NCBI GenBank assembly: GCA_937960435.1 | Contig: CALGPN010000020.1 | Coordinates: 1 to 38,134, forward strand | Reading direction: 5' to 3' | DNA from: an uncultured Desulfosoma sp. | Lineage (GTDB): Bacteria; Desulfobacterota; Syntrophobacteria; Syntrophobacterales; DSM-9756 | DNA: 38,134 nucleotides | Shown here: piece after piece, positions 16,118 to 37,721 of the stretch | Position numbering within the stretch: position 1 is the stretch's first letter | How the letters are laid out: every line of letters starts with the position of its first letter | Made by a program: the position numbers and the translations under genes | Notes under the pieces: generated by a model | What the model was told of the DNA's origin: nothing | What the model saw: the letters and a program-made list of their open reading frames with translations, nothing else | Database searches by the model: none

Positions 16118-17956
16118 TTAGACTCGACCGTTCTTTTCCATTTCTTCCATCTTGGCCAGGTCTTCAAAGCGGATGTCGATGCCCAAGATGCCGACGATTT
16201 CTTCCAAATCGTTACGGATGGGCGCCGACACCGTGATGCACAAAGCGCCCGTGTACCGAGACGTATAAAAATCGGTGACGTGCACCTTGCCGTCCCTCAT
16301 GGGTTCGATAAACCATGGGCGGTCGGAAAGGTCTTCTCCCACCTGGGCCGATTCGTATTTGGCCCGATCGGTGATATGGGTGATGTTGCGGGTGATTTTG
16401 CGGCCTTCCGCGTCCGTGACGTAGACGTACTGGATGAACGGGTTGAGTTCCAAAAGGGTCTGCAGGACGGGTTCCTGCAGGGACGGATCCATACTCTTGA
16501 TGGCCGCGTTTTCCACCACTTCGGCCACCAAGTGGGCCGCCAGGGATCGGGCGCGTTCCTTGAGCCGATCGAATTCACTGACGAAGTACTCGGGCAGGTA
16601 CCGTCTCGCCCATCGTTCCAATTCCTCGTTGGAAATGGAGGTCGTGCGCCCGGCTGCATATTCTTCCATGACGCGCTTGTGAATCTTCACAATGCCCGGA
16701 TGGCGCTTGTCGAGCCTCCGGTCTCCGGTCAAACGCAGGCGGTTGTTCACCCAGTAGGCGATGCCGGCCACACCGGATTTGTCCGTAATAATGACGCTCA
16801 CGGGTCGTTTCAGGAGCCGCCTCGTATCGAAGATGTTGTAGATTTCTTCATCCTTCACGAGACCGTCGGCGTGAATCCCCGCTTTGGTCGCGTTGAAGTC
16901 CTCGCCCACAAAAGGATAGTTGGGCGGGATGCGATAGCCCAGCTCCTTTTGGAAATATTCCGCGGCATCGGTGATGGCCGTTGTGTCGATCCCGTCCATG
17001 GAACCTCGAAGGCCGATGTATTCCATGATGAGGCCTTCGATGGGGGCATTGCCGGTGCGTTCCCCGAAGCCGAGGAGCGTCCCGTTGGCTCCGCTGCAGC
17101 CGTAGAGCCACGCCGTGGCGGCACAGACAAGCACCTTGTGGAAATCGTTGTGGCCGTGCCATTCCAGCAGATGCCCCGGAACACCCGCCTCATCGATGAA
17201 CGCTCGCACCAGCTTCGGGACGCTTCGAGGCAGGGCGGCGCCGGGATAGGTCACCCCGAAGCCCATGGTGTCGCAGAGGCGGATCTTGATGTCGATGCCG
17301 CTGTCCTCCCGAAGTTTCATGAGTTCGATGGCGAACGGAATGCAGAACCCGTAGGTGTCGGCCCGGGTCACGTCTTCGAAGTGGCAGCGCGGGACAATGC
17401 CCTTTTCCAAGGCGGCTTTCACGATGGCGAGATATTTTTCGAGCGCCTCCCGACGGGACATCTTCATCTTGAGGAAAATGTGGTAGTCAGAAACCGACGT
17501 CAGGATTCCCGTTTCCTTTAAGCCGGCATCCAGTACCAGCTGGAGGTCGGCGGCCACGGCCCGCACCCAGCCCGTGATCTCCGGATACCGATAGCCCTTG
17601 GCGAGGCACGCCTCCAGAGCCCGCCGATCCTTATCCGTGTAGAGAAAAAACTCGCTCTGACGAATGACGCCCTTGGGCCCCGACAACCGATGGAGGAACT
17701 CGAAGATTTTCTCAATCTGTTCCACCGTGTAGGGCGGTCGCGCCTGCTGGCCGTCGCGGAACGTCGTGTCCGTAATAAAGATGTCTTCCGCAGGGTCAAT
17801 GGGAAGCAGCTTGTGATCGAAATCGATCCTGGGAACCTCCACATACGGGAAGACGTTGCGCATGAGGTTGGGTTCCGGAACGTCCACCAGGCGGTGGTGC
17901 CAAAACCCCGAATGCTCGTGGTCCAAGACACGTTTCTTCTCGTTCCATCGGGCCAT
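16118..17956 (-). CDS. LeuA/homocitrate-synthase-type enzyme fused to a Cache-like sensor domain; candidate Re-citrate synthase
   Basis: The 612-residue protein has an N-terminal HMGL-like TIM barrel: metal and catalytic motif DTTFRDG (63-69), HGHND (267-271) and GFGERTGN (296-303), followed by the linker domain (about 350-460). This is the acetyl-CoA-dependent acyltransferase family of isopropylmalate, homocitrate and Re-citrate synthases. It has no LeuA-type allosteric domain. Residues about 470-602 resemble a PDC/Cache ligand-binding domain (DRPWFIEPM, TDFYTSRYTGALCITVS, VGILGIDIRFEDL), usually found outside the cell in sensors. No signal or membrane segment precedes it, so it would be cytosolic. 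GGGGAGG precedes the ATG. It starts 6 bases after aspS. The Re-citrate role is inference. Confidence 0.75.
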   Translation of the reverse strand: MARWNEKKRVLDHEHSGFWHHRLVDVPEPNLMRNVFPYVEVPRIDFDHKLLPIDPAEDIFITDTTFRDGQQARPPYTVEQIEKIFEFLHRLSGPKGVIRQSEFFLYTDKDRRALEACLAKGYRYPEITGWVRAVAADLQLVLDAGLKETGILTSVSDYHIFLKMKMSRREALEKYLAIVKAALEKGIVPRCHFEDVTRADTYGFCIPFAIELMKLREDSGIDIKIRLCDTMGFGVTYPGAALPRSVPKLVRAFIDEAGVPGHLLEWHGHNDFHKVLVCAATAWLYGCSGANGTLLGFGERTGNAPIEGLIMEYIGLRGSMDGIDTTAITDAAEYFQKELGYRIPPNYPFVGEDFNATKAGIHADGLVKDEEIYNIFDTRRLLKRPVSVIITDKSGVAGIAYWVNNRLRLTGDRRLDKRHPGIVKIHKRVMEEYAAGRTTSISNEELERWARRYLPEYFVSEFDRLKERARSLAAHLVAEVVENAAIKSMDPSLQEPVLQTLLELNPFIQYVYVTDAEGRKITRNITHITDRAKYESAQVGEDLSDRPWFIEPMRDGKVHVTDFYTSRYTGALCITVSAPIRNDLEEIVGILGIDIRFEDLAKMEEMEKNGRV

Positions 17957-25171: not shown

Positions 25172-26530
25172 TTAGAATTTATAAGAGGCACTGATCCCGA
25201 TAAGGTGAGCGTCCCCGTTTTCAAATTTCGATTGGTAGACGCCGTCGGCAAGTCGAGGCTCCACCGTGCGCTCTTCGATCACGAGGTACGTATAGGAAAG
25301 ATCCAGCGTCCAAGCGTTCCAACGAAACCCGGTCCCGACGCCGAACATGTGACGGTCGTTGGCCGGCACCAGGTAATCCGCCGTGGAGTCTGGGATGGGC
25401 GATTCGTCGAAAACGTAACTGGCCCGCAGATCCACCCAATCGGTCAGTTTATATTCCGCCCCGATGCTCAGGCGCCACACGTCCATCCAGTTTTTGGGTT
25501 TGGTCACGCTTGTGACGCCCGGCAAAATGGCCTCGTCGTACTGGATGGTCAGCTCTTTGTAACTGCTCCACCCGGTCCAGATGGCTCCGAGCTCGATCAG
25601 CAGCCGGTCCATGGGGCGGATACCTGCGCCCAAGAAGAGCATATCCGGGAGGGTGACACTTCCTTGGGCTCCGGTGTCGTTAAACCACGTGGCCGCAGCG
25701 GGCGCGAGCGGGCCGGAGGTGAGGGCCGCCGGCTTGGTGAAATCGGCATCCCCGTCCAGATGTTGTTTCACGTTGCTGTGGTAGGAAGCGCCCAGGGAAA
25801 GCCAGTCCAAGGGTTTCACATGGAGGCCCAGAGTGAAGCCGTAGCCGAAGGTATCGCCCGTGAGTTTGCTCTTCACATCGAGAGCGGAGGTTGTGGGGTC
25901 GTTGATCTTAGTGGAATACCCCAAGGCGGCCAACGTCGCCCCGGCCCCTCCTTTTACGAACGGCGCCGTGGCATCGATTTTCTGTTCCAACGTAAGATCG
26001 AACCACATGACCTCCACCCCGGCGGCTATGGATACCCTATCGCTAAGCTTCACGGCCACATTGGGGTTAAAGGACAGGGTCTGGATGACGGCGTTGTAAT
26101 TGTTGTAGCGGCCCCACCAGTTTTTGTCGAATTCCGTGCCCAGGCCGAAACGGGAATAGAAACCCGCCCCAAACCACAGAGCGTCCGAAAACTGGTAGCT
26201 GGCATACACGTGGGGCGGAATCCACACGTTGCTTTCCGCCGACGTGGTTTTGCTCTGACCCGAATAGGGGTTGACGGTGATCACATCGGTCATGGGCGAA
26301 ATAAACGTGGCCCCGGCCATCACTTGCATGCCGGGAAGCTGTGTGATACCCGCCGGGTTATAAAACAAGGCCGACACGTCATCGGCACTTCCCGCCAGGT
26401 TTGCACCCAAAGCATTGCCGCGGGCACTGCCTTCATAAAGGGCGAAACCCGCCGCACCGGCCTGAGGAGCCACCATGAGGAGCAGCGCCCCAAGCCCCAG
26501 CCATGTCACCCACCAACGGTTTCCTCTCAT
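25172..26530 (-). CDS. FadL-family outer-membrane channel
   Basis: FadL-type proteins pass long-chain fatty acids or aromatic hydrocarbons across the outer membrane. The 452-residue precursor has a signal peptide cut near APQAGA-AGFALYE (about residue 26), the N-terminal hatch region with GNALGANLAGSADDVSALFYNPAG (motif NPAG), many amphipathic beta strands and a C-terminal aromatic end (SASYKF). GGAGGAAGAG precedes the ATG. A half-copy of the acyl-CoA island operator lies just upstream (26553-26562), hinting at joint control. The substrate is not determined; hydrophobic acids are the natural guess from the island at 28.3-37.8 kb. Confidence 0.93.
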   Translation of the reverse strand: MRGNRWWVTWLGLGALLLMVAPQAGAAGFALYEGSARGNALGANLAGSADDVSALFYNPAGITQLPGMQVMAGATFISPMTDVITVNPYSGQSKTTSAESNVWIPPHVYASYQFSDALWFGAGFYSRFGLGTEFDKNWWGRYNNYNAVIQTLSFNPNVAVKLSDRVSIAAGVEVMWFDLTLEQKIDATAPFVKGGAGATLAALGYSTKINDPTTSALDVKSKLTGDTFGYGFTLGLHVKPLDWLSLGASYHSNVKQHLDGDADFTKPAALTSGPLAPAAATWFNDTGAQGSVTLPDMLFLGAGIRPMDRLLIELGAIWTGWSSYKELTIQYDEAILPGVTSVTKPKNWMDVWRLSIGAEYKLTDWVDLRASYVFDESPIPDSTADYLVPANDRHMFGVGTGFRWNAWTLDLSYTYLVIEERTVEPRLADGVYQSKFENGDAHLIGISASYKF

Positions 26531-26964
26531 CTCTTCCTCCTCGAATGGCGATGACGTTCGTTAAAAAACTCCCTGTCTTCCGTCCTCGAGCTCGCCCGGC
26601 TCCGCCCCTGGAGTGTCGGACAAGCCCTTGCCCGTGCATCGCGCGCGCTCACCCCCTTTCGTTTCGGGTAATCCTCCTCCCGCAATTTCGCGAACTCCCT
26701 TGGGAAGATCCCCGACTCTCCAATCCGGTCGAACCCATCGTGCCCATCTTTCTCGTCGGGGTTGTCAAAGGATGCGTTTTTGATCACATTGAAAGCCTCC
26801 AGCCCGGAGCGGGAAACGGGCGGCACGAGCGAGGGATGGGAGGGGATTTTTCAGATTCCGGGCACGGTTACCCTATCGAAGCCCCCAAAAACGGTCAATG
26901 GGAAAGTGAAGAAAAGAACGCAAAAAACCCGCCTTGGTGCACCGAGGGTCTAGGGGAGGTCACG
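26531..26964. other. Intergenic region between the porin and manA
   Basis: About 430 bases between divergent genes. It holds the operator-like half-site at 26553-26562 and a weak possible manA promoter (TTGTCA 26762-26767, 17 bases, CACATT 26785-26790). Short reading frames here are Arg/Pro/Ser-rich without ribosome sites and I do not call them. Confidence 0.45.
26553..26562 (-). promoter_or_regulatory. Operator-like half-site upstream of fadL
   Basis: On the minus strand AACGAACGTC differs by one base from AACGAGCGTC, the left half of the operator at 31317-31332. The right half is not conserved. It lies 23 bases upstream of the porin start codon. Confidence 0.3.
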
Positions 26965-28356
26965 ATGAAAACGGCCGGGCCGCTCGCGCGACCTTATCGC
27001 CTGCAAAACCCCATCCGCCATTACGAATGGGGAGAACGGGGTCCAGGGGCTTTTATCGCCAAATTGTTGAACATTTCGAATCCGAATCCGATCCCCTACG
27101 CGGAACTGTGGGTCGGAGCCCATCCGTCGGCCCCTTCGCGGATCCTCAACCTGAGGAACGAGACGGATGTGATCCCCTTGGACGATGCGGTCCGGTTGTG
27201 GCCGCTGCCCATCTTGGGGCCTCGGGTCCATGGCGCCTTCGGCGGCCGGTGGCCTTTTTTGCTGAAAATTCTCTCTGCCGCCGAAGCCCTGTCCATTCAG
27301 GTCCACCCGGACCAAAGCCTTGCCCCCGTCCTGCATGCCCAAGACCCGGATCACTACCCCGATCCCAACCACAAGCCCGAACTTGCCGTGGCTTTGGATC
27401 GATTCTACGCCCTTGCGGGATTCAAGTCCCTGGACGGCTGGCGGGCCGTCTTCCACACCTTTTCGGAAATCGCCGCTTTCATCGGAAAGGGCGCGGAGGC
27501 GCTCGGGCGAACACAGCTCGGAGACCCGCAAGGGGCTCCCGCACCGGGTGCCCACTCGGTCTCCCTCCGGCCCCAAGAGCCCCACGGACGGACCGAGAGC
27601 CCCACCGTGCCGAACATCGACGGCATGGGACAGGATCCCGGCTCAGCCTCCTTCGCCGAGTGGATCCGGGCCGCCTTGACCCGACTGCTGCACAGAGCCC
27701 GGCAAGAGCCTAAAGCTCTTGCCGCCGTCGTCCATGCCACGGCACGCCGCATGGACAGCGCTCCCGAACCCTTTGCGTCCATGGCCGCTCTTTTCCATGA
27801 ACTCCTGGCGAAATACGGCCCTGAAGACGTGGGGCTTCTCGTGTTGCTGTTCCTCAACCCCGTGGAACTCCTCCCCGGACAGGCCCTTTTTCTTCCCCCC
27901 GGCCTTCCCCATGCTTATCTGCGGGGAAACATCGTGGAATGCATGGCCAACTCCGATAACGTCATCCGTCTGGGCCTGACCTTAAAGCCAAAGGATCTCC
28001 AAAAGATTCCCCAAGTTCTGAAGTTCGATCCCACGAGCCCTTCGCCCATCACCCCGCCGGACGAAGCCTCCACGGCCTATCCCGCGCCGTGTGACGAATT
28101 CGAGGTCCACCGTTGGATCGTCAGAGCTGGCCAAAACGTATCCATCTCCCGGCCGGACGGGCCGGAAGTAATCCTGGTGATCGAAGGTCGGGGGCGGATC
28201 TTTTGGCGGGAAAACGAGCGGCTTCAGATGGCGCCTTACGACAAAGGGCAGAGCTTTCTTGTTCCGGCCCTGCTTACGGACTACGGTCTGGAGGCGGAGA
28301 CGCGCACTGTGGCCTTTGCGGTGCGCGTTCCCGAAAGAGGCCTAGCTAAGCCTTGA
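26965..28356 (+). CDS. manA: Mannose-6-phosphate isomerase, type I
   Basis: This zinc enzyme interconverts fructose-6-P and mannose-6-P for polysaccharide precursors. The 463-residue product has YRLQNPIRHYEWG near the start and the metal-binding residues Q112 and H114 (LSIQVHPDQS), E139 (HKPELAVAL) and a later His in GLPHAYLRGNIVECMANSDNV. It is longer than the usual 390 or so, mainly from a Pro/Gly/Ser-rich insert at about 181-227. GGGGAGGTCACG precedes the ATG. Its last 11 bases overlap the convergent TetR gene. Confidence 0.93.
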   Translation: MKTAGPLARPYRLQNPIRHYEWGERGPGAFIAKLLNISNPNPIPYAELWVGAHPSAPSRILNLRNETDVIPLDDAVRLWPLPILGPRVHGAFGGRWPFLLKILSAAEALSIQVHPDQSLAPVLHAQDPDHYPDPNHKPELAVALDRFYALAGFKSLDGWRAVFHTFSEIAAFIGKGAEALGRTQLGDPQGAPAPGAHSVSLRPQEPHGRTESPTVPNIDGMGQDPGSASFAEWIRAALTRLLHRARQEPKALAAVVHATARRMDSAPEPFASMAALFHELLAKYGPEDVGLLVLLFLNPVELLPGQALFLPPGLPHAYLRGNIVECMANSDNVIRLGLTLKPKDLQKIPQVLKFDPTSPSPITPPDEASTAYPAPCDEFEVHRWIVRAGQNVSISRPDGPEVILVIEGRGRIFWRENERLQMAPYDKGQSFLVPALLTDYGLEAETRTVAFAVRVPERGLAKP

Positions 28357-28939
28357 ACATGCCGTAGAGGAACAGGTCGGCGATTTCCTGTGCAACTTCT
28401 TCCAAGGATAAAGCCCCCTGGGGTTTGAACCAGAAGTAGAGCCAGTGCAAAGAACTGATGAGAGAAAACGTCATCACGGTGGGATTGACGCGCCGGATGA
28501 CTCCCTGATCCATTAGGGAGACGAGAAACGCCCGCAGCTGATGAACATTTTCTTTTTCCTTGTCCAAGATGACGCGCTTTTTGTCTTCCGGCAGATATTC
28601 CATGTCGTGAAACAGGATCTTGTTGAAATTTTCGTTCTTGAGATAAGTACGCAGGTATTCGATGAGAATATCCGTGAGCTGTTCCTTGAGCGGTTTGCCG
28701 GATTCCACGTTTCGGGCAATGGCACGGCGCATGTTGTCCACCAGTTCGTCGGCCGCCTCCACACAGATGCGAAAGAGGATTTCTTCCTTGTTCTTGAAGT
28801 GATGGTACAAGGCGGCCTTGCTGATCCCGACCCGCGCGGAGATTTCCCGGGTGCTGGCCGCCTCGTAGCCTTTTTCGTAAAAAAGTTGACGGGCGGCCCT
28901 GAGAATCTCGGCCGCCGTTCCCTTCCTTTCGTCCTTCAC
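28346..28939 (-). CDS. TetR-family regulator of the acyl-CoA island
   Basis: A 197-residue regulator starting at GTG 28939 (MKDERKGTAAEILRAARQLF). The N-terminal helix-turn-helix (about 8-55) reads AASTREISARVGISKAALYHHFKNKEEI, as in TetR repressors. The C-terminal part is an all-helical ligand domain, of a type that in fatty-acid regulators binds acyl-CoA. It starts 25 bases after the upstream dehydrogenase stop, so it is the last gene of that transcript. Repeated palindromes at 31317-31332 and 37770-37785 are its likely targets, giving autorepression and control of both blocks. Ligand and targets are inferred. Confidence 0.9.
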   Translation of the reverse strand: MKDERKGTAAEILRAARQLFYEKGYEAASTREISARVGISKAALYHHFKNKEEILFRICVEAADELVDNMRRAIARNVESGKPLKEQLTDILIEYLRTYLKNENFNKILFHDMEYLPEDKKRVILDKEKENVHQLRAFLVSLMDQGVIRRVNPTVMTFSLISSLHWLYFWFKPQGALSLEEVAQEIADLFLYGMFKA

Positions 28940-28964
28940 CAGACGCCTGCCTTGCCCTGTGGGT

Positions 28965-30116
28965 TTAGCCTTTGGTGTGTTCCTTGAGGACGATTTTGGC
29001 AATGGTAAGCTTTTCCGCTTCTTTAGTCCCTTCATAAATTTCCAGAATCTTGGCGTCCCGATAATAACGCTGCACGTCGTATTCGTCGATATAGCCGTAG
29101 CCGCCGTGGAGCTGCAAGGCTTTGTCTGCAACCCATACGGCCGTTTCCCCGGCGTATAATTTGGCCATGGCGCTCAGCTTGGGATCGATCCGACCTTGGT
29201 CCGCCAACCATGCGGCTTTGTAGGTGAGCTGTCGGGCGAGTTCGATGCGGGTGGCCATTTCCGCAAGCTGGAACTGGACACCTTGGAAGTTGGCCAACGG
29301 CTGGCCGAAAGCGGTACGCTCTTGCACATACTGGGCGGCCTTGTCCAAGGCCCCTTGGGCCAATCCGACACCCTGGCCCGCCACCATGGCCCGGGTGGTG
29401 TTGAAAAAGTCCATGAGCTGATAAAAACCGTTGCCTTCCTGGCCCACCAGGTTCTCCGCCGGGACTTTGACGTCTTCAAAGCTGATTTCCGCCGTGTCGC
29501 TGGCGCGGATCCCCATTTTGCCGTGAATCTTGTTTCGGGTGATCCCGGGGGATGTGGCGTCCACGATGAGCAGACTGAAACGCTTATGGCGCGGCGCGTC
29601 GGGGTTCGTGATGCACAAAACACAAAAGTAGTCGCAAATGGTCCCGTTGGTGATGAACATCTTTTGGCCATTTAGGATGTAATGGTCGCCGTCTCGGACC
29701 GCCCGAGTGCGAATGCCGGCCACGTCCGTTCCCGCATTGGGTTCCGTGTAGGCGCCGGCAAAGATGATTTCGCCGTTGACGATCTTCGGCAAGTAAGTCT
29801 TTTTTTGTTCTTCCGAACCGTAGAGGTAGATGTTTTCCGATCCGAAACCGGCGGCGGTGATGAGCCCGATGCCCATGTCGATCCGGCTGAACTGTTCCGT
29901 GATGATGGTGTTGCCCAAAAAGCCGGCGCCCGGTCCGCCGTATTCCTCAGGGATCCATGCTCCGATGAAACCGTACTCGCAAGCTTTTTTCCATACCTTT
30001 CGAGGGTATTTCTCCTCCCGGTCGCATTCCTTGGACACGGGCGTGAATTCCCGGACGGCGAACTTGTAGGCTTCTTCTTTCAAAATTTTCAGTTCCTCAG
30101 GCAGATCGAAATTCAT
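28965..30116 (-). CDS. Acyl-CoA dehydrogenase, canonical type
   Basis: An FAD flavoenzyme that introduces the alpha-beta double bond into acyl-CoA and passes electrons to ETF. The 383-residue protein has FAD-contact motifs AYTEPNAGTDVAGI and MFITNGTICDYF, the RTAFGQPLANFQ helix, LHGGYGYIDEYDVQRYYRDAK and the catalytic base E362 in IYEGT, as in short-chain acyl-CoA dehydrogenases. AAGGAGG stands 7 bases before the ATG. It follows the other dehydrogenase by 19 bases. The acyl substrate is unknown. Confidence 0.95.
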   Translation of the reverse strand: MNFDLPEELKILKEEAYKFAVREFTPVSKECDREEKYPRKVWKKACEYGFIGAWIPEEYGGPGAGFLGNTIITEQFSRIDMGIGLITAAGFGSENIYLYGSEEQKKTYLPKIVNGEIIFAGAYTEPNAGTDVAGIRTRAVRDGDHYILNGQKMFITNGTICDYFCVLCITNPDAPRHKRFSLLIVDATSPGITRNKIHGKMGIRASDTAEISFEDVKVPAENLVGQEGNGFYQLMDFFNTTRAMVAGQGVGLAQGALDKAAQYVQERTAFGQPLANFQGVQFQLAEMATRIELARQLTYKAAWLADQGRIDPKLSAMAKLYAGETAVWVADKALQLHGGYGYIDEYDVQRYYRDAKILEIYEGTKEAEKLTIAKIVLKEHTKG

Positions 30117-30135: not shown

Positions 30136-31278
30136 TCAAATGAGCTGTAAGCGTTTGGCGACGATGAGCTTCATGATTTCGGTCGTCCCCGCAAAAATCG
30201 GGATGGGCCGCACATCCCGGTAGAAACGGCTGATGGGGTATTCCTCCATATAGCCGTAGCCCCCGTGGAGTTGCACACACTGATAGGCCACCCGGTTGGC
30301 CATTTCCGCGATCCACGCCTTTCCCATGGACACCTCCGTGACGATGTCCTTCCCCGCCATGTGATCCGCAACGAGCCGATCGAGAAAGGTCCGTCCCAGG
30401 GTCACTTCCGTGGCCATATCCACGATCTTGAAGGCATTGTGTTGGAAGGAGGCGATGGGTTGGCCGAAAGCGGTCCGGCCCCGGGCGTAACCGATGGTCA
30501 TGGCGAGCATGGCTTCGGCCATGGCCTGGGCCATGATGCAGGCCATGAGCCGTTCCTGCTGCAGGTGATCCATCATGTGGTAAAAACCGCGGTTCAGTTG
30601 ACCAAGGAGGTTTTCGGCGGGGACCCGGCACTCGTCGAAAATGAGTTCCGCCGTATCTTGGGCGTGCAGACCCATTTTTTTCAGATTCCGGCCTCTGTGA
30701 AAACCCGGCGCTCCCCGCTCGACACAAATCAGGCTGATCCCTTTCGCTCCGGAATCAGGGGACCCCGTGCGGCAGGCCACAATGACCAGGTCCGCCAGGA
30801 TCCCGTTGGAAATAAATGTTTTTTGGCCGTTGATGACCCAGAAGTCGCCGTCCTTTTCCGCCCTTGTGCGGATGGCGGCCAAATCGGATCCCGTGTTGGG
30901 TTCCGTCATGGCCACCGCCAAGATGATCTCCCCGCGCGCCGCCCCGGGGAGCCATCGTCGTTTTTGCTCTTCCGTCCCCAAAGCGGCGAGATAAGGAGCC
31001 ACAATGTCGCTGTGCAGCGGCGCCATGAGGCTCACCGCGCCCGCTTTGGCCAGTTCCTCAGCAATAATCACCGAATAGAGAAAGTCCGCGCCGCTTCCGC
31101 CGTATTCCTCGGGAAGCCACGGGCACAAGAACCCTGCTTCCCCCATGGCCCGCCATGCAACCCGGGACACGATCCCTTTTTCTTCCCAGCTGTCGATGTG
31201 AGGCACCACTTCACGGTCCACAAACCGCCGGAAGGATTCCCGAAAGATGTGGTGCTCTTCCTTATACAAACCCGCCAT
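30136..31278 (-). CDS. Acyl-CoA dehydrogenase lacking the canonical catalytic Glu
   Basis: The 380-residue protein keeps FAD and substrate signatures (AMTEPNTGSDLAAI, FISNGILADLV, GRTAFGQPIASFQ, LHGGYGYMEEYPISRFYRD). At the usual catalytic-base position it reads IFAGTTEIMK, with A363 in place of Glu. The alternative Glu site of long-chain and isovaleryl enzymes also seems absent (LAMTIGYARGRTAFG). The base is either elsewhere or the chemistry differs. ATG 31278 has GGGGGG upstream; an ATG at 31338 lies inside the promoter and is rejected. It is the first gene of its block, directly downstream of the operator. Confidence 0.9.
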   Translation of the reverse strand: MAGLYKEEHHIFRESFRRFVDREVVPHIDSWEEKGIVSRVAWRAMGEAGFLCPWLPEEYGGSGADFLYSVIIAEELAKAGAVSLMAPLHSDIVAPYLAALGTEEQKRRWLPGAARGEIILAVAMTEPNTGSDLAAIRTRAEKDGDFWVINGQKTFISNGILADLVIVACRTGSPDSGAKGISLICVERGAPGFHRGRNLKKMGLHAQDTAELIFDECRVPAENLLGQLNRGFYHMMDHLQQERLMACIMAQAMAEAMLAMTIGYARGRTAFGQPIASFQHNAFKIVDMATEVTLGRTFLDRLVADHMAGKDIVTEVSMGKAWIAEMANRVAYQCVQLHGGYGYMEEYPISRFYRDVRPIPIFAGTTEIMKLIVAKRLQLI

Positions 31279-31308
31279 AATTCCCCCCTTGGCCTGCACG
31301 GCCCGCTC

Positions 31309-31338
31309 CTTATGCCTTACCGGACGCTCGTTCGTCAA
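31309..31338 (-). promoter_or_regulatory. Promoter of the dehydrogenase-TetR block
   Basis: On the minus strand TTGACG (31333-31338), 18 bases, then CATAAG (31309-31314). The spacer is occupied by the palindromic operator 31317-31332, the classical place for a repressor. Confidence 0.6.
31317..31332 (-). promoter_or_regulatory. TetR operator candidate, site 1
   Basis: The minus strand reads AACGAGCGTCCGGTAA, matching 14 of 16 positions of the site at 37770-37785. Together they give AACGAGCGnnCGGTnA. Similar ACCGAnCGnnCGTT palindromes are bound by acyl-CoA-responsive TetR proteins. Confidence 0.6.
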
Positions 31339-31515: not shown

Positions 31516-32352
31516 TCAGGCGACCTCCGCCACGGCGTGCGAAAGGACGACGGAGCGTTCCGTCGACGCTTCGATGGCGTATCGGCCGTTTCCCAAGAGC
31601 CAACCCCGTGTGGTGATGGTTTCTCCGGGATAGACCACATCGGCGAAACGCACCTGAAACGCCTTGAATCGCGACACCTCCCCGCCGCATGCTCCTTGCA
31701 AAATGGCCCGGGTGGCAAACCCAAAAGTGCAGAGCCCATGGAGGATCGGCTTGGGAAATCCCGCCGCCTCGGCCGCCTTGGGGTCGATGTGCAAGGGATT
31801 GACATCGCCGGACAAACGATAAAGGGCCGCCTGGTCTTCCATAGTCTTGAAAGCCACCTCGAAGTCCGGATTCTTGTCCTTGGGCACCGAAACCGCCTCT
31901 GCCTTGGGACCGGGGTCCCCTCCCCATCCCCCAAGCCCCCTGCAGAAAAGGCTCATGCGCGTCTCACAAATCTTTGCCCCCTTTTCGTCCGTGCTTTCCG
32001 TTTCCAACACCACCAAGGCGGCTTTCTTCTTGTCGTAAATCCCCGCCACTTTTACGGTGCTCAAAAGCTTTCCCTTGGAAGGAATGAGGCCGTGAAGGCG
32101 GATGGCTTGTTCTCCATGCAGCACCGTTTTGAGATCGATCTTGAGCTTTTCCAGGACTTCAAAAAACGGCTGAAACACCGGAATCACGGCATAGGAGGGG
32201 CAGACCTTGAGGCCTCCTTCCGCGCGTTCGTACACATAGTCCAGGTCCGAAGCCCCGAAACCGATGCCGAGGTGATAGAGAATGATCTCGCGCCAATGCA
32301 GCCGATGTTCGAAAGGGCCGATGGTCAGTCCCACCTGGTTGATGTCGATCAT
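31516..32352 (-). CDS. MaoC-family (R)-specific enoyl-CoA hydratase, double hot-dog
   Basis: A 278-residue protein with an N-terminal hot-dog domain (about 10-135) and a C-terminal MaoC domain holding the hydratase-2 motif YRLSGDVNPLHI (catalytic D183 and H188), the arrangement of peroxisomal MFE-2 hydratase. It would add water to a trans-2-enoyl-CoA to give the (R)-3-hydroxyacyl-CoA. AAGGGGG precedes the ATG. It ends the first block of the island, about 130 bases after the SDR gene, and is followed by the promoter and operator of the second. Confidence 0.92.
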   Translation of the reverse strand: MIDINQVGLTIGPFEHRLHWREIILYHLGIGFGASDLDYVYERAEGGLKVCPSYAVIPVFQPFFEVLEKLKIDLKTVLHGEQAIRLHGLIPSKGKLLSTVKVAGIYDKKKAALVVLETESTDEKGAKICETRMSLFCRGLGGWGGDPGPKAEAVSVPKDKNPDFEVAFKTMEDQAALYRLSGDVNPLHIDPKAAEAAGFPKPILHGLCTFGFATRAILQGACGGEVSRFKAFQVRFADVVYPGETITTRGWLLGNGRYAIEASTERSVVLSHAVAEVA

Positions 32353-32484: not shown

Positions 32485-33309
32485 TTACCAACCCCCGGTC
32501 ACCTTGATGACCTGGCCGGAGACATAATCCGAAAGGGGAGAAGCGAGAAACAACATGACCCGGGCGGCTTCGTCGGGCGTCCCCGGCCGTCCCAAGGGGA
32601 TCATCATGCGGAAGGCTTCCAGTTGGTTCTTGGGCACCCCGATGGCGATCTTTTTGCCGTCCTTTTCCAGGACCGTGTCATCCGCCTTGGGCTGGGTGAG
32701 CCGCGTTTCGATCCAGCCGTAGGCCACGGCGTTCACGTTGACGTTCAAACGCCCCCACTCCTTGGCCAATGTCTTGGTAAAGCCCAAGATGCCGGATTTG
32801 GCCGTGGAATAATTGGCTTGCCCGGCGTTGCCGTCGGTCCCGGCCACCGAACTCACATTGATGATCTTGCGCATGACCACCCGGCCTTCTTCCGCCTCCT
32901 TCTTGGCGTTTTCCCGGATGTACGGCGCGGCGGCCCGAACGATTCGAAACGGCGCCGTGCAATGCACCTTGAGCATGGCTTCCCACTGTTCGTCGGTCAT
33001 CTTGTGCACCACGCCGTCCCACGTGTAGCCTGCGTTGTTGACGATGACGTGAATATCCGGGCCGAAGGCGTCGACGGCCTTCTCAACGAATTTTTCCGCA
33101 AAGCCGTCGGCCGTCACATCCCCCACCACGGCCACCGCCTCACCGCCCCGACTCCGAATTTCCTCCACCACCTCCTGGACGGGCCCGGGATCCAAATCGC
33201 TCAAAACCAACTTGGCCCCTTCCGACGCAAAAAGCAACGCCGCCGCACGGCCGATCCCCCGGCCCGCTCCCGTGATGAGACACACTCTTCCTTGCAGCAT
33301 CTTCTCCAT
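32485..33309 (-). CDS. SDR-family 3-hydroxyacyl-CoA dehydrogenase (FabG-like)
   Basis: A 274-residue short-chain dehydrogenase with the cofactor motif TGAGRGIG (13-20), an acidic residue after strand 2 (LVLSDLD, favouring NAD), NNAG (91-94), the catalytic serine region NVSSVAG and YxxxK (Y167, K171), and a C-terminal VTGGW. It resembles FabG, but the context next to a MaoC hydratase and thiolase points to oxidation of (R)-3-hydroxyacyl-CoA. An insert of about 25 residues follows NAVAYGWIETRL. GGAGGG precedes the ATG. Confidence 0.9.
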   Translation of the reverse strand: MEKMLQGRVCLITGAGRGIGRAAALLFASEGAKLVLSDLDPGPVQEVVEEIRSRGGEAVAVVGDVTADGFAEKFVEKAVDAFGPDIHVIVNNAGYTWDGVVHKMTDEQWEAMLKVHCTAPFRIVRAAAPYIRENAKKEAEEGRVVMRKIINVSSVAGTDGNAGQANYSTAKSGILGFTKTLAKEWGRLNVNVNAVAYGWIETRLTQPKADDTVLEKDGKKIAIGVPKNQLEAFRMMIPLGRPGTPDEAARVMLFLASPLSDYVSGQVIKVTGGW

Positions 33310-33370: not shown

Positions 33371-35026
33371 CTAGGCCCCGATTTTCTCTCGGATGTCCCG
33401 ACGCAGTTCCTTCTTGAGAATCTTCCCCACGGGGTTTCTCGGAATGACCTCCACCACTTCCAACCGTTCGGGCAGTTTGTAAGTGGCCACCCCTTGCTCT
33501 CTCATGAAAGCCGTGAGGCTTTCCAACGTGACCGTTTGGCCGGGCTTGGGGACGACGTAGACGCAGGTGCGCTCTCCCAGGTTTTCGTCGGGCATCCCCA
33601 CGGCCGCCACGTCCTGCACGGCCGGGTGAGCCAGCAGGACGTTTTCCACTTCCTGGGCGCTGATGTTGTAGCCGCCTCGAATGATGATGTCCTTGGCCCG
33701 CTCGAAGAACTTGAGGTAACGATCGCCGGCGATTTGGAAAAGATCGCCGGTGCGAAAATAGCCTTCCGAATCGAAGGCCTGGGCGTTCAGATCCGGTCTC
33801 TTGAAGTAGCCGGGGATGACGTTGGGGCCGCGATAGAGGAGCTCCCCGACCGCGCCGTCCTCGCTCAGTTCCGTCCCGTCGGGCGCGACCACCTTGGTCT
33901 GAATGTGCCGGGCCATGGGGGTGGACCATTCTACGCCGGGAGCGCCGTAGCGCGGCAGATGGTCCACGCGGATTGTCATGTCCGGCACTTCCTGAACCCC
34001 GGAAACCAAGGCGGTGCCTTCGTTTTGCCCCCAGATGTTTCCGATATCCACATTCCAGCGCCTTTTGAACTCCTCCATGGACCACAGGGACGGCGGCGCG
34101 GATCCTACGGTGATGACGCGCACGGAACTCAAATCCACCCCTTGAGCGGCCGGGTGTTTGAGGATGAGGTTCACCACGGCGGGCACAAGCAGGGTGTACT
34201 GGATGCGTTCCTGCACCATTTGCTTCAAAAGGAGCTGGGGATCGAACGGGTGGTGCAGGATCACCGTGCCGCCGTAGCGCAACCACGGCACATAGACCGT
34301 CCCGACGGAAGCCATGTTGACCAGAGGCCCGGCGGTGAGCATGATGTCGCCGGGCTGCATGCCGCTGGCCAAAGCGACGGCCGCCTGGCATCGCCAGTTG
34401 TTGTGGCTTAACGGACATCCTTTGGGCTGGGCTTCCGTGCCCGACGTCCAGCAGATGGTGAAGATGTCGTCCGCATCGACCTGAATGACATTGAGGGCGG
34501 GATCGGGCTTTTCCTGGATCATGCGGCGCACGTCTTCGTAAGTGTAGATTTTTTTAAGGGTGGGGACCTTCCGCGCAGCCTCTTCGGCCATGGCCCGGTG
34601 ACCGAAACCGTGAAACTCGTTTATGGTGATCATGGCCTTGGCCTGGGTCAGTTCGGCGACGTAGGTCACTTCCTTGGCGCGCCATTGCATGGGCATGGGG
34701 GAAATCACCCCGCCGGCCCGAGCGACGGCGAGATACAACATGGCCAGCTCCCAACAGTTGGGGAGTTGCACGAGGACGATGTCATCTTTGTCGATGCCTT
34801 CGGCGTGCAACGCCGAAGCCGTCGCTTCCACGGCCCGGTCAAAATCGGTGTAGCTTACCCGTTCCGGGGCTGTCCCCAAGAGGGCTTCCTTATTGAGCGG
34901 GTCGACCATGGCGGTGCGCTCCGGCATGGAGCGAGCGTGGTGCTTGAAATCGTCCAAGAGGGTCCGGGCGCCCCAGCATCCCTTGGAAGTATATTCCGAA
35001 ATCCTTTCGGGCGAGGCGAGAATCAT
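33371..35026 (-). CDS. Acyl-CoA synthetase, AMP-forming
   Basis: A 551-residue class I adenylate-forming enzyme that would activate a carboxylic acid with ATP and CoA. Seen are the P-loop-like ICWTSGTEAQPKGCPLSH (about residue 190), GQNEGTALVSG, the motif YFRTGDLFQI, the hinge FERAKDIIIRGGYNISAQEVE and the catalytic lysine near the end (RNPVGKILKKELRR). The acid-binding pocket does not identify the substrate. AAGGAG lies upstream of the ATG. It stands 24 bases after the thiolase and 61 before the SDR gene, so it likely feeds the island with its substrate. Confidence 0.93.
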   Translation of the reverse strand: MILASPERISEYTSKGCWGARTLLDDFKHHARSMPERTAMVDPLNKEALLGTAPERVSYTDFDRAVEATASALHAEGIDKDDIVLVQLPNCWELAMLYLAVARAGGVISPMPMQWRAKEVTYVAELTQAKAMITINEFHGFGHRAMAEEAARKVPTLKKIYTYEDVRRMIQEKPDPALNVIQVDADDIFTICWTSGTEAQPKGCPLSHNNWRCQAAVALASGMQPGDIMLTAGPLVNMASVGTVYVPWLRYGGTVILHHPFDPQLLLKQMVQERIQYTLLVPAVVNLILKHPAAQGVDLSSVRVITVGSAPPSLWSMEEFKRRWNVDIGNIWGQNEGTALVSGVQEVPDMTIRVDHLPRYGAPGVEWSTPMARHIQTKVVAPDGTELSEDGAVGELLYRGPNVIPGYFKRPDLNAQAFDSEGYFRTGDLFQIAGDRYLKFFERAKDIIIRGGYNISAQEVENVLLAHPAVQDVAAVGMPDENLGERTCVYVVPKPGQTVTLESLTAFMREQGVATYKLPERLEVVEVIPRNPVGKILKKELRRDIREKIGA

Positions 35027-35050: not shown

Positions 35051-36247
35051 TTAAAGGCCGAAAATGCCCACACTGCACACGCTGAAAGACGGGATGCCAC
35101 CCAAGTTGTGGGTGAGGCCCAGTCTCGGATCCGGGATCTGACGGGGCCCGGCCCGATGCAGCAGCTGGTTGTAGACCTCGTAAATCATGCGAATGCCGGA
35201 AGCGCCGATGGGATGGCCGAAACACTTGAGGCCCCCGTCGGATTGGCACGGGATCTTCCCTTCCAAATTGAAGAAACCGTCGTTGATGTCTCGGATGGCC
35301 CGACCCCGCTCGGAAATTTGAAGATCCTCGTAAGTGACGAGTTCCGTGATGGAAAAACAATCGTGGACTTCCAAGACGCTCAGTTCCTCCCGCGGCCGGG
35401 TGATGCCGGCTTCCGCATACGCCCTTTTGGCCGCCTCCGTCGTGGTCTTGAGATAGGTCCCGTCCCATCGGGTGGTGACCATCTCCTCACCGGACGTGGC
35501 GGCGATTTGCAACGCCTTTACCAGCACGGGAGTCTTTCCCAAACCTCGAGCGACATCCGGCGTCGTCACGATGGCGGCGGCCGCGCCGTCGCTGACGCCG
35601 CAGCAGTCAAAGAGTCCCAAAGGCCAGGCGATGATAGGGGCTTTGAGGACTTGTTCCGGGGTGATCTCCTTGCGCAGATGCGCCTTGGGGTTCATGGCCC
35701 CGCAGTGGTGGCTCTTGGCGGAGATTTTCGCCAAAGCCATTTTGCCTTCCTCAGGGGAAATCCCGTATTTGGCGAAATAGCGCGTCGCCATGAGGGCGAA
35801 GCCGCCCGGGGCTGTGAAGTTGGGCAGGATAAACCGATTGAGGGTTCCCATGGCGGTGTCGAAACCCGGAAGGCCGCCGTAGCCCGTATCCTTGAGCTTT
35901 TCCACACCCAAGGCCAGGGCGATCCGGCAGGCCCCCGAAGCCACGGCGTAACAGGCGCCGCGGAAGGCTTCCGTCCCCGTGGCGCAGAAATTTTCCACAC
36001 GCGTCACCGGAATATTGGGAAGTTTTAAGGCCTGTGCCAAAGGAATGGCGCTTTTGCCGATATTGACTTCATCAAAGCATGTGCCCAGCCACGCCCCTTC
36101 GATCTCTTCCTTTTCGATCCCCGCATCCTGCAGGGCTTCCACAAAAGCTTCCACCATGAGGTCCTCGGCGCCGTCGTTCCACCGCTCCCCGAATCGGGTG
36201 CAGCCCATCCCGATGATCGCCACCTTGTCCTTGATTCCCATCGCCAT
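35051..36247 (-). CDS. SCP2/archaeal-type thiolase
   Basis: A 398-residue thiolase-fold enzyme with nucleophilic C88 (VENFCATGTEAFRG), the HDCF motif of SCP2-type thiolases (295-298), GHPIGASG (344-351) and a C-terminal THNLGG segment with C391. This branch includes archaeal acetoacetyl-CoA thiolases and BbsB, which act together with a separate DUF35 (OB-fold) subunit. Here a DUF35 domain is in the fused neighbour that ends 13 bases upstream, so the two likely form a complex. It would cleave a 3-oxoacyl-CoA or make the reverse bond. GGAGGG precedes the ATG. Confidence 0.93.
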   Translation of the reverse strand: MAMGIKDKVAIIGMGCTRFGERWNDGAEDLMVEAFVEALQDAGIEKEEIEGAWLGTCFDEVNIGKSAIPLAQALKLPNIPVTRVENFCATGTEAFRGACYAVASGACRIALALGVEKLKDTGYGGLPGFDTAMGTLNRFILPNFTAPGGFALMATRYFAKYGISPEEGKMALAKISAKSHHCGAMNPKAHLRKEITPEQVLKAPIIAWPLGLFDCCGVSDGAAAAIVTTPDVARGLGKTPVLVKALQIAATSGEEMVTTRWDGTYLKTTTEAAKRAYAEAGITRPREELSVLEVHDCFSITELVTYEDLQISERGRAIRDINDGFFNLEGKIPCQSDGGLKCFGHPIGASGIRMIYEVYNQLLHRAGPRQIPDPRLGLTHNLGGIPSFSVCSVGIFGL

Positions 36248-36260
36248 GATCGTTCCCTCC

Positions 36261-37721
36261 TTAGTGCTGCGCCGCTTCCACGGGCACGGCCTTCCAGAAA
36301 TACGTGTGCACGCCCCGCTGCGAATCGTGGTACTTTCGCCGAAAATGCAGCTCCACCGGTTGATCCACCCGGACGGCCTCCAAGGCGCAGTCGGTAAAAT
36401 CCAACATCATGCGCCCTCCCCCTTCAAAATCCACGATGCCGTAGATCTGCGGGGGATCCAGGGAAAAGGCCAGGTTGTCTCCGGTGTAGCTGAAGACCCG
36501 CGCCGATTTATCGGAAAACAGATACGGTTCCGTTTCGTCCACGGCCTGGCATTCGGCGACGGCACAGACCCTTTGCGGCGGAAACTGCGGAGTGCCGCAC
36601 CGACGGCACCGTGTGCCTTCCAAGCCCAAAATCGCCCGCCGATACCGCCACTGGACCGAAAGAGGCGTCTCCGCTTGGAATTCGCCGCGAAGCCCTGTTT
36701 CTACGGGAAGCAGCTCCCGAAAGGCCGCCGCTTTTTCATATGGCGCCAGCGCGGCTTTGCGCGCGGCAAGGGCTTCGAAGGTCCAGGCGGGTTTGAAAGA
36801 CGCCACGGCGTCGCTCACACGAAAGTGAAGCACATCCACGCCGCTGCCGTAACCCACCACGAGAATGTGATCGCCGGCGGAAGCCGATTCCAGGGCACGG
36901 CAGAGCATCAGCACGGGGTGGGCCGCCCCGGTGTCGCCCACCTGGGCCGCCAGTGGATCGGCGATCCGCTCCGGCGGAAAACCCAGCTTGGCGCCGATGA
37001 CGGCGTGCTCCCGAGGGTACGGGCAGGGATAAATCACCGTGGAGAAGACGTCCGGGGCAACTTGGGCTTGAGCCAAGTAGGCCTTGACGGCTTTCGGAAT
37101 AAGAGAGACATAGCCTTCGTCACGGATCCAGCGTTCTTCCCACGATCGCGCGATTTTCTTTTCGTTTTCCCGAATGGGGCCCGGAAAATCGGCGCTCAGG
37201 GAAGACCAGCCCACGAGCTCTGCGAGTACGCCTTCCCGGCCCACCATGACGGCCGCACCCGCGTCCCCGTAAAGGAGCTCTTCGGCGCTGCCCATTTTGG
37301 CGCGCCGCGCGTCCGAGGCCACGGCCAAGGCTTGGGGTGAGGCACCCGAAGCCACCTGGGCGGCCGCCGCCAGCACGGCCGACGTGCCCGCGCGCGTCGA
37401 TCCCGTAACGTCCACAGCCAACGCCCCTTCGGGGAGACTCAACGCTTCCCGAAGGATCGCCGCGTTTTGGCGTTCCGCATATGGAAATGTGGACGATCCG
37501 GCAAAAAGCGCCGTGCAGGTAGGCTCGATTCGAAAGCGACACGCGTTTCGCGCCGCCGCCGCCGCCAAAGTGACGGCGTCTTCGTCCGCACCGGCCACGG
37601 CCTTTTCTCCGCCCGCGAGACCCCACGCGGCAGGGTTGATCCAGGCCATGGCTTTGACCACCGTTTTTCTTTCCAGCCGGTATCGCGGCAGATAAGCCCC
37701 ATAGGCAGTGATGCCGACCAT
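36261..37721 (-). CDS. HMG-CoA-synthase-like protein fused to a DUF35 zinc-ribbon/OB-fold domain
   Basis: A 486-residue fusion. Residues 1-340 follow the HMG-CoA synthase fold (MVGITAYGAYLPRYRL at the start, YGDAGAAVMVG, LVVGYGSGVDVLHFRV). Residues 365-480 are DUF35: a zinc ribbon (C372, C375, C386, C391) and an OB fold ending KYHDSQRGVHTYFWKAVP. Compared with archaeal HMG-CoA synthase, the nucleophilic Cys site reads STRAGT (T109), the His site reads VIYPCPYP (Y231) and the Glu site GSSTFPYA (S77), so the triad appears lost. In archaea a DUF35 protein bridges thiolase and synthase. AAGGAGG precedes ATG 37721. It is first in the block and its promoter region holds an operator. Confidence 0.88.
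   Translation of the reverse strand: MVGITAYGAYLPRYRLERKTVVKAMAWINPAAWGLAGGEKAVAGADEDAVTLAAAAARNACRFRIEPTCTALFAGSSTFPYAERQNAAILREALSLPEGALAVDVTGSTRAGTSAVLAAAAQVASGASPQALAVASDARRAKMGSAEELLYGDAGAAVMVGREGVLAELVGWSSLSADFPGPIRENEKKIARSWEERWIRDEGYVSLIPKAVKAYLAQAQVAPDVFSTVIYPCPYPREHAVIGAKLGFPPERIADPLAAQVGDTGAAHPVLMLCRALESASAGDHILVVGYGSGVDVLHFRVSDAVASFKPAWTFEALAARKAALAPYEKAAAFRELLPVETGLRGEFQAETPLSVQWRYRRAILGLEGTRCRRCGTPQFPPQRVCAVAECQAVDETEPYLFSDKSARVFSYTGDNLAFSLDPPQIYGIVDFEGGGRMMLDFTDCALEAVRVDQPVELHFRRKYHDSQRGVHTYFWKAVPVEAAQH

Follow-up and report, generated by a model that had tools for sequence, protein, structure and literature searches.

PhlABC, the Friedel-Crafts acylase of Pseudomonas protegens, is built from a subunit with an HMG-CoA synthase (HMGCS) fold that has neither the catalytic Cys nor the catalytic Glu (PhlA), a DUF35 subunit (PhlB), and a thiolase subunit with a catalytic Cys88 (PhlC) (PMC6392133, PMC12955522). 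Acyl transfer by this enzyme uses residues of PhlC only, and activity requires joint expression of the whole operon (PMC6392133). The C. sphagni ATase and, judging by its PDB titles, the S. macacae MucABC are enzymes of the same kind. The same three folds are found in the archaeal acetoacetyl-CoA thiolase/HMGCS/DUF35 complex (6ESQ, 6ET9), in which DUF35 ties the thiolase to HMGCS and a shared CoA site tethers the intermediate (PMC12329534). A 2010 paper already drew attention to fusions of DUF35 to thiolase-superfamily, short-chain dehydrogenase (SDR) and SCP2 domains, as well as to a PhlA described as 'inactive' (PMC2954200).

The window (the whole stretch of DNA analysed, 38,134 nucleotides from an uncultured Desulfosoma sp.) encodes a protein of 486 aa that joins an HMGCS-like domain to a DUF35 domain in a single chain. 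Its gene occupies 36261..37721, the coordinates assigned to it in an earlier note made from the letters alone, and lies on the minus strand, with an ATG start at 37721, a TAA stop at 36263-36261 and a Shine-Dalgarno-like AAGGAGG upstream; the plus-strand reading of the same interval is interrupted by an internal stop, and 413 bases of contig remain in front of the start codon. The assignment draws on the reading frame, Pfam, phmmer and an AlphaFold2 model. Residues 1-340 (36702..37721, minus strand) form the HMGCS-fold domain, as delimited by VIA-align to 6et9_I, and residues 357-481 (36279..36653, minus strand) the DUF35 domain, i.e., a zinc ribbon plus OB fold (PF12172, PF01796; phmmer match to 6esq_E, 1.9e-13). 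The two-domain make-up proposed in the earlier note was recovered by Pfam, with ACP_syn_III_C (9.9e-7), zf-ChsH2 (3.8e-6) and OB_ChsH2_C (8.8e-11) each passing its cut-off, and by phmmer, which matched PhlA (9skh, 4e-38), archaeal HMGCS (8e-26) and the DUF35 chain of the same archaeal complex (2e-13). The four zinc-ribbon cysteines, C372, C375, C386 and C391 (36549..36608, minus strand, from the alignment), do not vary in any of the 40 sequences aligned, and a zinc-ribbon pattern was present in all 115 fusion rows described below (three of them duplicates); the region thus has both marks of the zf-ChsH2 plus OB_ChsH2_C family, a four-Cys zinc ribbon and an OB fold.

The AlphaFold2 model, computed with 40 sequences, had a mean pLDDT of 86.3 and a pTM of 0.89, with parts of residues 343-356 below 50, and is predicted to have the HMGCS/KAS III fold. 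Its top VIA-align match was the archaeal HMGCS chain 6et9_I (Z 47.5, 335 residues, rmsd 1.7 A), then 6esq_I (47.4), followed by the PhlA chains 9skh_A (Z 45.6), 5mg5_A (44.6) and 5m3k_A (44.4) and the HMGCS-fold chains of MucABC, 9vbo_B (41.7) and 9vbt_B (41.5), with MvaS at 39.2 and below; each of the best seven matches belongs to a multi-subunit assembly in which the partner is a thiolase or an acyltransferase. As the HMGCS domain fills the VIA-align list, the DUF35 assignment rests on Pfam and phmmer.

The earlier note had also concluded, from the motifs GSSTFPYA, STRAGT and VIYPCPYP, that the Cys, Glu and His of HMG-CoA synthases appear to have been lost, and proposed an alignment with characterised synthases as a check. 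All three motifs are in the protein (residues 75-82, 108-113 and 229-236, respectively), and in a MAFFT alignment with catalytic HMGCS the Glu column is occupied by Ser77 (codon 37491..37493), the Cys column by Thr109 (37395..37397) and the His column by Pro232 (37026..37028), all on the minus strand; the three controls in this alignment, the archaeal HMGCS segment of 6ESQ (MtHMGCS) and the MvaS proteins of Melissococcus and Enterococcus, read E, C, H in every case. To this we added loci collected through their similarity to the Desulfosoma fusion, giving 115 fusion rows (30 from genomes of the phylum, 80 from a scan of species genomes and five picked for long frames), which came down to 112 distinct fusions, that of Desulfosoma included, when three duplicates were removed. 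At the respective triad columns, Glu, Cys and His are absent from all 112. Up to two columns away from the triad positions a Cys turns up in nine and a His in five; none of the 112 has a Glu or Asp that close to the Glu column. Ten plasmid-borne bacterial fusions and three haloarchaeal fusions gave the same picture, each group having no Glu, no Cys and one His at these columns. Twelve more fusions, picked with the archaeal HMGCS model, likewise lacked all three residues, four of them having Asp where the Glu would be; eight of these twelve are closer by tblastn to archaeal HMGCS than to the Desulfosoma fusion.

Three relatives from the same phylum (L158, L159 and L160) carry the thiolase, the HMGCS-like protein and DUF35 as split genes, an arrangement from which the fused one may have arisen, and the triad is lost in all three, the columns reading T/P/P, T/P/Q and T/P/P. 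Two PhlA sequences read C/G/Q. Because both the split relatives and PhlA are without the triad, its loss is not tied to the fusion. On the aligned sequences, absence of the triad is a trait of the family and not a sign of decay.

The family is widespread. It was found in 92 of 297 sampled genomes of the phylum and in at least 582 confirmed stretches in the scan of species genomes, with named hosts that include Thermodesulfobacteriota, Actinomycetota, Bacillota, Chloroflexota, Nitrospirota, Spirochaetota, Myxococcota, Pseudomonadota and haloarchaea; viral contigs gave one weak partial match. A tree of 63 rows unites the 52 bacterial fusions in a single clade (100/100), separate from a clade of PhlA, 9vbo and a Priestia protein, from the haloarchaeal fusions and from catalytic HMGCS; it leaves the branching order among these groups unsettled, and several of its branches are long. 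Nine genomes of about 2-3 Mb (G039, G075, G108, G137, G164, G182, G189, G212 and G234) have four to six family matches each, and some of these matches are closer to archaeal HMGCS and yet without its triad.

Directly after the fusion gene, starting 13 bases downstream of its end, is a gene for an SCP2-type thiolase (35051..36247, minus strand; NCBIfam PRK06157, NF004810, 635 bits against a cut-off of 403), which also matches SCP2-thiolases and the 6esq_A, BbsB (7pxp) and Ltp2 (6ok1) chains. Its catalytic residues C88, H295, C297 and H345 are all intact, i.e., it has the nucleophilic Cys and the HDCF and GHP motifs, and across the 112 thiolase segments (not deduplicated) C88 is kept in 111, the exception being a gap, and H295, C297 and H345 in 112. 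A gene for a relative of this thiolase lies on the same strand within 400 bases downstream of the fusion at 109 of the 112 loci, abutting or overlapping it at 25; at two of the other three it is about 1.8 kb away (at one of these, L106, the intervening frame looks by eye like a sugar-nucleotide epimerase) and at the third the contig ends. Median identity to the Desulfosoma proteins is 66% for the thiolase versus 45% for the fusion.

Co-occurrence was scored in the same 297 genomes, with the fusion counted at an E-value of 1e-20 or better and the thiolase at 1e-80 or better: the fusion was found in 92, the thiolase in 91 and both in 87. In all four matches to the thiolase only (G082, G200, G251 and G157) the contig runs out in the direction of the expected fusion, after 1-78 bases in the first three and after 367 bases in G157; these 367 bases gave no fusion match and look like the tail of an SDR that lacks SCP2, like those of L113 and L115, so that G157 is likely an SDR-bearing form, of the kind described below, cut off by the contig end. 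Three of the five genomes with only the fusion hold the split thiolase/HMGCS-like/DUF35 set, in which the thiolase is more distant (37-39% identical). On plasmids, 35 records were found and eleven inspected; ten carry the fusion, directly followed in all ten by a gene annotated as acetyl-CoA acetyltransferase, and the fusions themselves are labelled as OB-fold domain-containing protein, 3-oxoacyl-ACP synthase III C-terminal domain protein or hydroxymethylglutaryl-CoA synthase. The eleventh (L127, from Priestia) has an unfused HMGCS-like/thiolase/zinc-ribbon trio, which adjoins NRPS genes. In the three haloarchaeal fusions the thiolase is directly upstream, not downstream. No single-chain fusion with the thiolase was found among nine loci whose long frames were followed: those of L112-L116 turned out to be HMGCS-DUF35-SDR(-SCP2) proteins, and those of L163-L166 to be upstream, antisense or out-of-frame extensions.

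Beyond the thiolase the minus strand of the window continues with an AMP-binding acyl-CoA ligase (33371..35026), an SDR that is probably a 3-hydroxyacyl-CoA dehydrogenase (32485..33309), a MaoC/MFE-2 hydratase-2 type enoyl-CoA hydratase (31516..32352; PF01575, PF22622), two acyl-CoA dehydrogenases (30136..31338 and 28965..30116) and a TetR-family regulator (28346..29131, its true start probably downstream of 29131), all assigned by Pfam. Further on, on the same strand, there is a FadL/TodX-type outer-membrane transporter (25172..26530; PF03349), which is possibly the route of substrate entry for the operon. Between the TetR gene and FadL is a frame of 211 aa (26950-27585) that had no Pfam match and may not be a gene. 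Elsewhere in the window, 16118-17956 joins an HMGL-like domain (PF00682) to a Cache/PDC sensor domain, an unusual-looking combination.

The genome itself has one PF01796 match, the fusion gene, and no further DUF35, and four strong Thiolase_N matches elsewhere (203-365 bits), from which we reason that the thiolase and fusion pair probably serves a special substrate. No HMGCS above the archaeal-type cut-off was found in this genome or in the 297 genomes of the phylum, and none above the prokaryotic-type cut-off in this genome. As for the surroundings of the pair in other genomes, tblastn picked up at least one of ligase, acyl-CoA dehydrogenase, hydratase and SDR at 20 of 41 loci viewed with 5 kb on either side, although at three of the 20 the SDR is possibly the one on the fusion chain. 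At the remaining 21 it picked up the pair only, so the further beta-oxidation genes are not universal, which counts against the beta-oxidation role proposed below and against a fixed metabolon. At two of these pair-only loci (L036 and L107) ten neighbouring frames were scanned with Pfam and were mostly unrelated or not telling, one at L107, about 4.4 kb from the thiolase, being a CoA-transferase.

The fold, with its matches to HMGCS, could be taken to mean that the protein is a true HMG-CoA synthase whose active-site residues have shifted or been misaligned, and the occasional Cys or His close to the triad columns would fit this; however, there is no acidic residue near the Glu column in any of the 112, and the NCBIfam HMGCS models scored the protein below cut-off in every case (199 versus 244, 138 versus 353 and 42 versus 360 bits). 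The alignment with its controls and the family scores largely refute this reading, which we regard as very improbable, and the absent triad and missed cut-offs agree with the earlier view that the usual route to HMG-CoA is closed to the protein. In favour of a former synthase now in decay is that the fusion evolves faster than its partner: against four relatives its dN/dS is 0.10-0.13 (dS 1.2-1.4, near saturation), versus 0.015-0.025 for the thiolase in the same four pairs, and in a closer pair of relatives (dS 0.19) it is about 0.11 versus 0.04. By these ratios the fusion is nonetheless under purifying selection, its frame stays open and is conserved in Desulfacinum as well as in much more distant hosts, and it has invariant motifs, so that conservation and dN/dS refute decay and leave it hardly credible. 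Desulfacinum is of the same family as the Desulfosoma genome, and the pair of D. infernum is 76% and 95% identical to the two Desulfosoma proteins. An almost invariant motif, W-E-E-R-W-x-R-D-x-G (residues 194-203; 37113..37142, minus strand, from the alignment of 112), keeps positions 194, 195, 197, 198, 200, 201 and 203 in 109-112 of the 112 fusions; an archaeal HMGCS, a PhlA and an MvaS, one of each being compared, mostly differ at these positions. Together with Cys233 (37023-37025, the codon right after Pro232 and so one residue past the lost His), which is Cys in 101 of 112, this near-invariant stretch, under purifying selection, raises the prospect that the HMGCS-fold domain is an enzyme with a different chemistry. 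Going by its conservation, Cys233 could be an alternative functional residue, and this is a point that speaks against a pure scaffold; it is not kept, however, in 11 of the 112 (gaps in three), in the three split relatives the His column is followed by D, Q and D, and the known catalytic columns keep no Glu, Cys or His, so we consider a different chemistry unlikely.

A further reading is a stronger form of the scaffold interpretation and compatible with it: beyond acting as a structural clamp, the fusion may be a CoA- or acyl-CoA-binding or channelling subunit of a metabolon, handing 3-oxoacyl-CoA on from the dehydrogenase to the thiolase. In 11 of the 112 chains (L072, L085, L089, L092, L094, L104 and L112-L116; 788-912 aa) the DUF35 domain is followed by an SDR domain, and in nine of these by SCP2 as well, although five of the eleven (L112-L116) had been fetched on account of their long frames. 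The neighbouring frame in L112 is a MaoC-SDR-SCP2 protein, with similar neighbours, by eye, in L113 and L115, and the tethering of an intermediate in the shared CoA site of the archaeal complex (PMC12329534) offers a precedent. An SDR on the fusion chain connects the dehydrogenase step with the scaffold and hints at an assembly of more parts. The remaining 101 chains have no SDR, however, and many loci show none nearby by tblastn. We therefore hold channelling to be possible but doubtful, and we offer with equal reserve the wider speculation that a dead HMG-CoA synthase is the hub of a widespread beta-oxidation assembly. It would bind the thiolase through its fused DUF35 domain and in some lineages carry the dehydrogenase (SDR) and SCP2 on its own chain, so that 3-oxoacyl-CoA would go from dehydrogenase to thiolase without release.

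We think it probable that the fusion has no catalytic activity of its own and is the scaffold of a heteromeric SCP2-type thiolase, equivalent in one chain to PhlA plus PhlB or to archaeal HMGCS plus its DUF35 clamp. The predicted fold and its structural matches, the family-wide absence of the triad, the intact thiolase site, the near-obligate pairing of the genes and their co-occurrence all point this way, and a role as scaffold or CoA-handling partner of the neighbouring thiolase, which the earlier note had suggested, is the best supported of the readings. By analogy with PhlABC and the archaeal complex, the fusion and the thiolase would form a physical complex, in which the DUF35 domain would clamp the thiolase, the HMGCS-fold domain would dimerise and wall off a CoA/acyl cavity shared by the two proteins, and the chemistry, thiolysis of a 3-oxoacyl-CoA at Cys88, would be left entirely to the thiolase. 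Thiolysis is more likely than condensation because the operon is a nearly complete beta-oxidation set; the pair may thus serve the last beta-oxidation step of an imported acid, which we would guess to be branched, aromatic or otherwise bulky.

If the scaffold reading is right, HMG-CoA synthase labels on the fusions are wrong, the partner thiolases are obligate heteromers that would seem dead when expressed alone, and the SDR-bearing forms allow one to test directly whether bacterial beta-oxidation channels its substrates. The earlier note had thought the combination of fusion, residue loss and catabolic linkage little described, and this holds in part. Loss of the residues in partnership with DUF35 and a thiolase has been described (PMC6392133, PMC2954200), and the principle of a dead HMGCS-like subunit completing a thiolase is already known from PhlABC. 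Among the matches listed in the open-licence PMC literature, judged from titles and the starts of abstracts, we recognised no paper describing a fused HMGCS-like/DUF35 protein, and the single-chain family, its breadth and its setting in a beta-oxidation operon were not found described in the literature searched.

Compared with PhlABC, the Desulfosoma pair has the same HMGCS fold without Cys and Glu and the same adjoining thiolase with an intact Cys. It differs in that PhlA and PhlB are separate chains, whereas here they correspond to one (split only in the three unfused relatives), in that the lost residues are replaced by S/T/P rather than the C/G/Q of PhlA, and in that PhlABC belongs to antibiotic biosynthesis and the fusion to a catabolic setting. 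The Pseudomonas enzyme (PpATase) also works without CoA, and for this reason our analogy of a shared CoA site rests on the archaeal complex. In catabolism, DUF35 docked on a thiolase-fold enzyme is known from BbsAB (benzoylsuccinyl-CoA thiolase) and from ChsH2/Shy with Ltp2/Sal, which differ from the Desulfosoma pair in that the available portion of the source mentions no HMGCS-fold partner for them (PMC12329534). The archaeal complex, the nearest structure to our model, differs in that its HMGCS keeps E, C and H and its DUF35 is a separate chain. The peroxisomal MFE-2 plus SCPx pathway has hydratase-2, SDR, SCP2 and SCP2-thiolase parts for bulky acyl-CoAs; we know of no HMGCS-like scaffold in it, and the likeness of the operon to it is one of resemblance only. 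Were the tentative hub reading to hold, the assembly would be a soluble prokaryotic counterpart of the trifunctional and MFE-2/SCPx systems, with another scaffold at its core.
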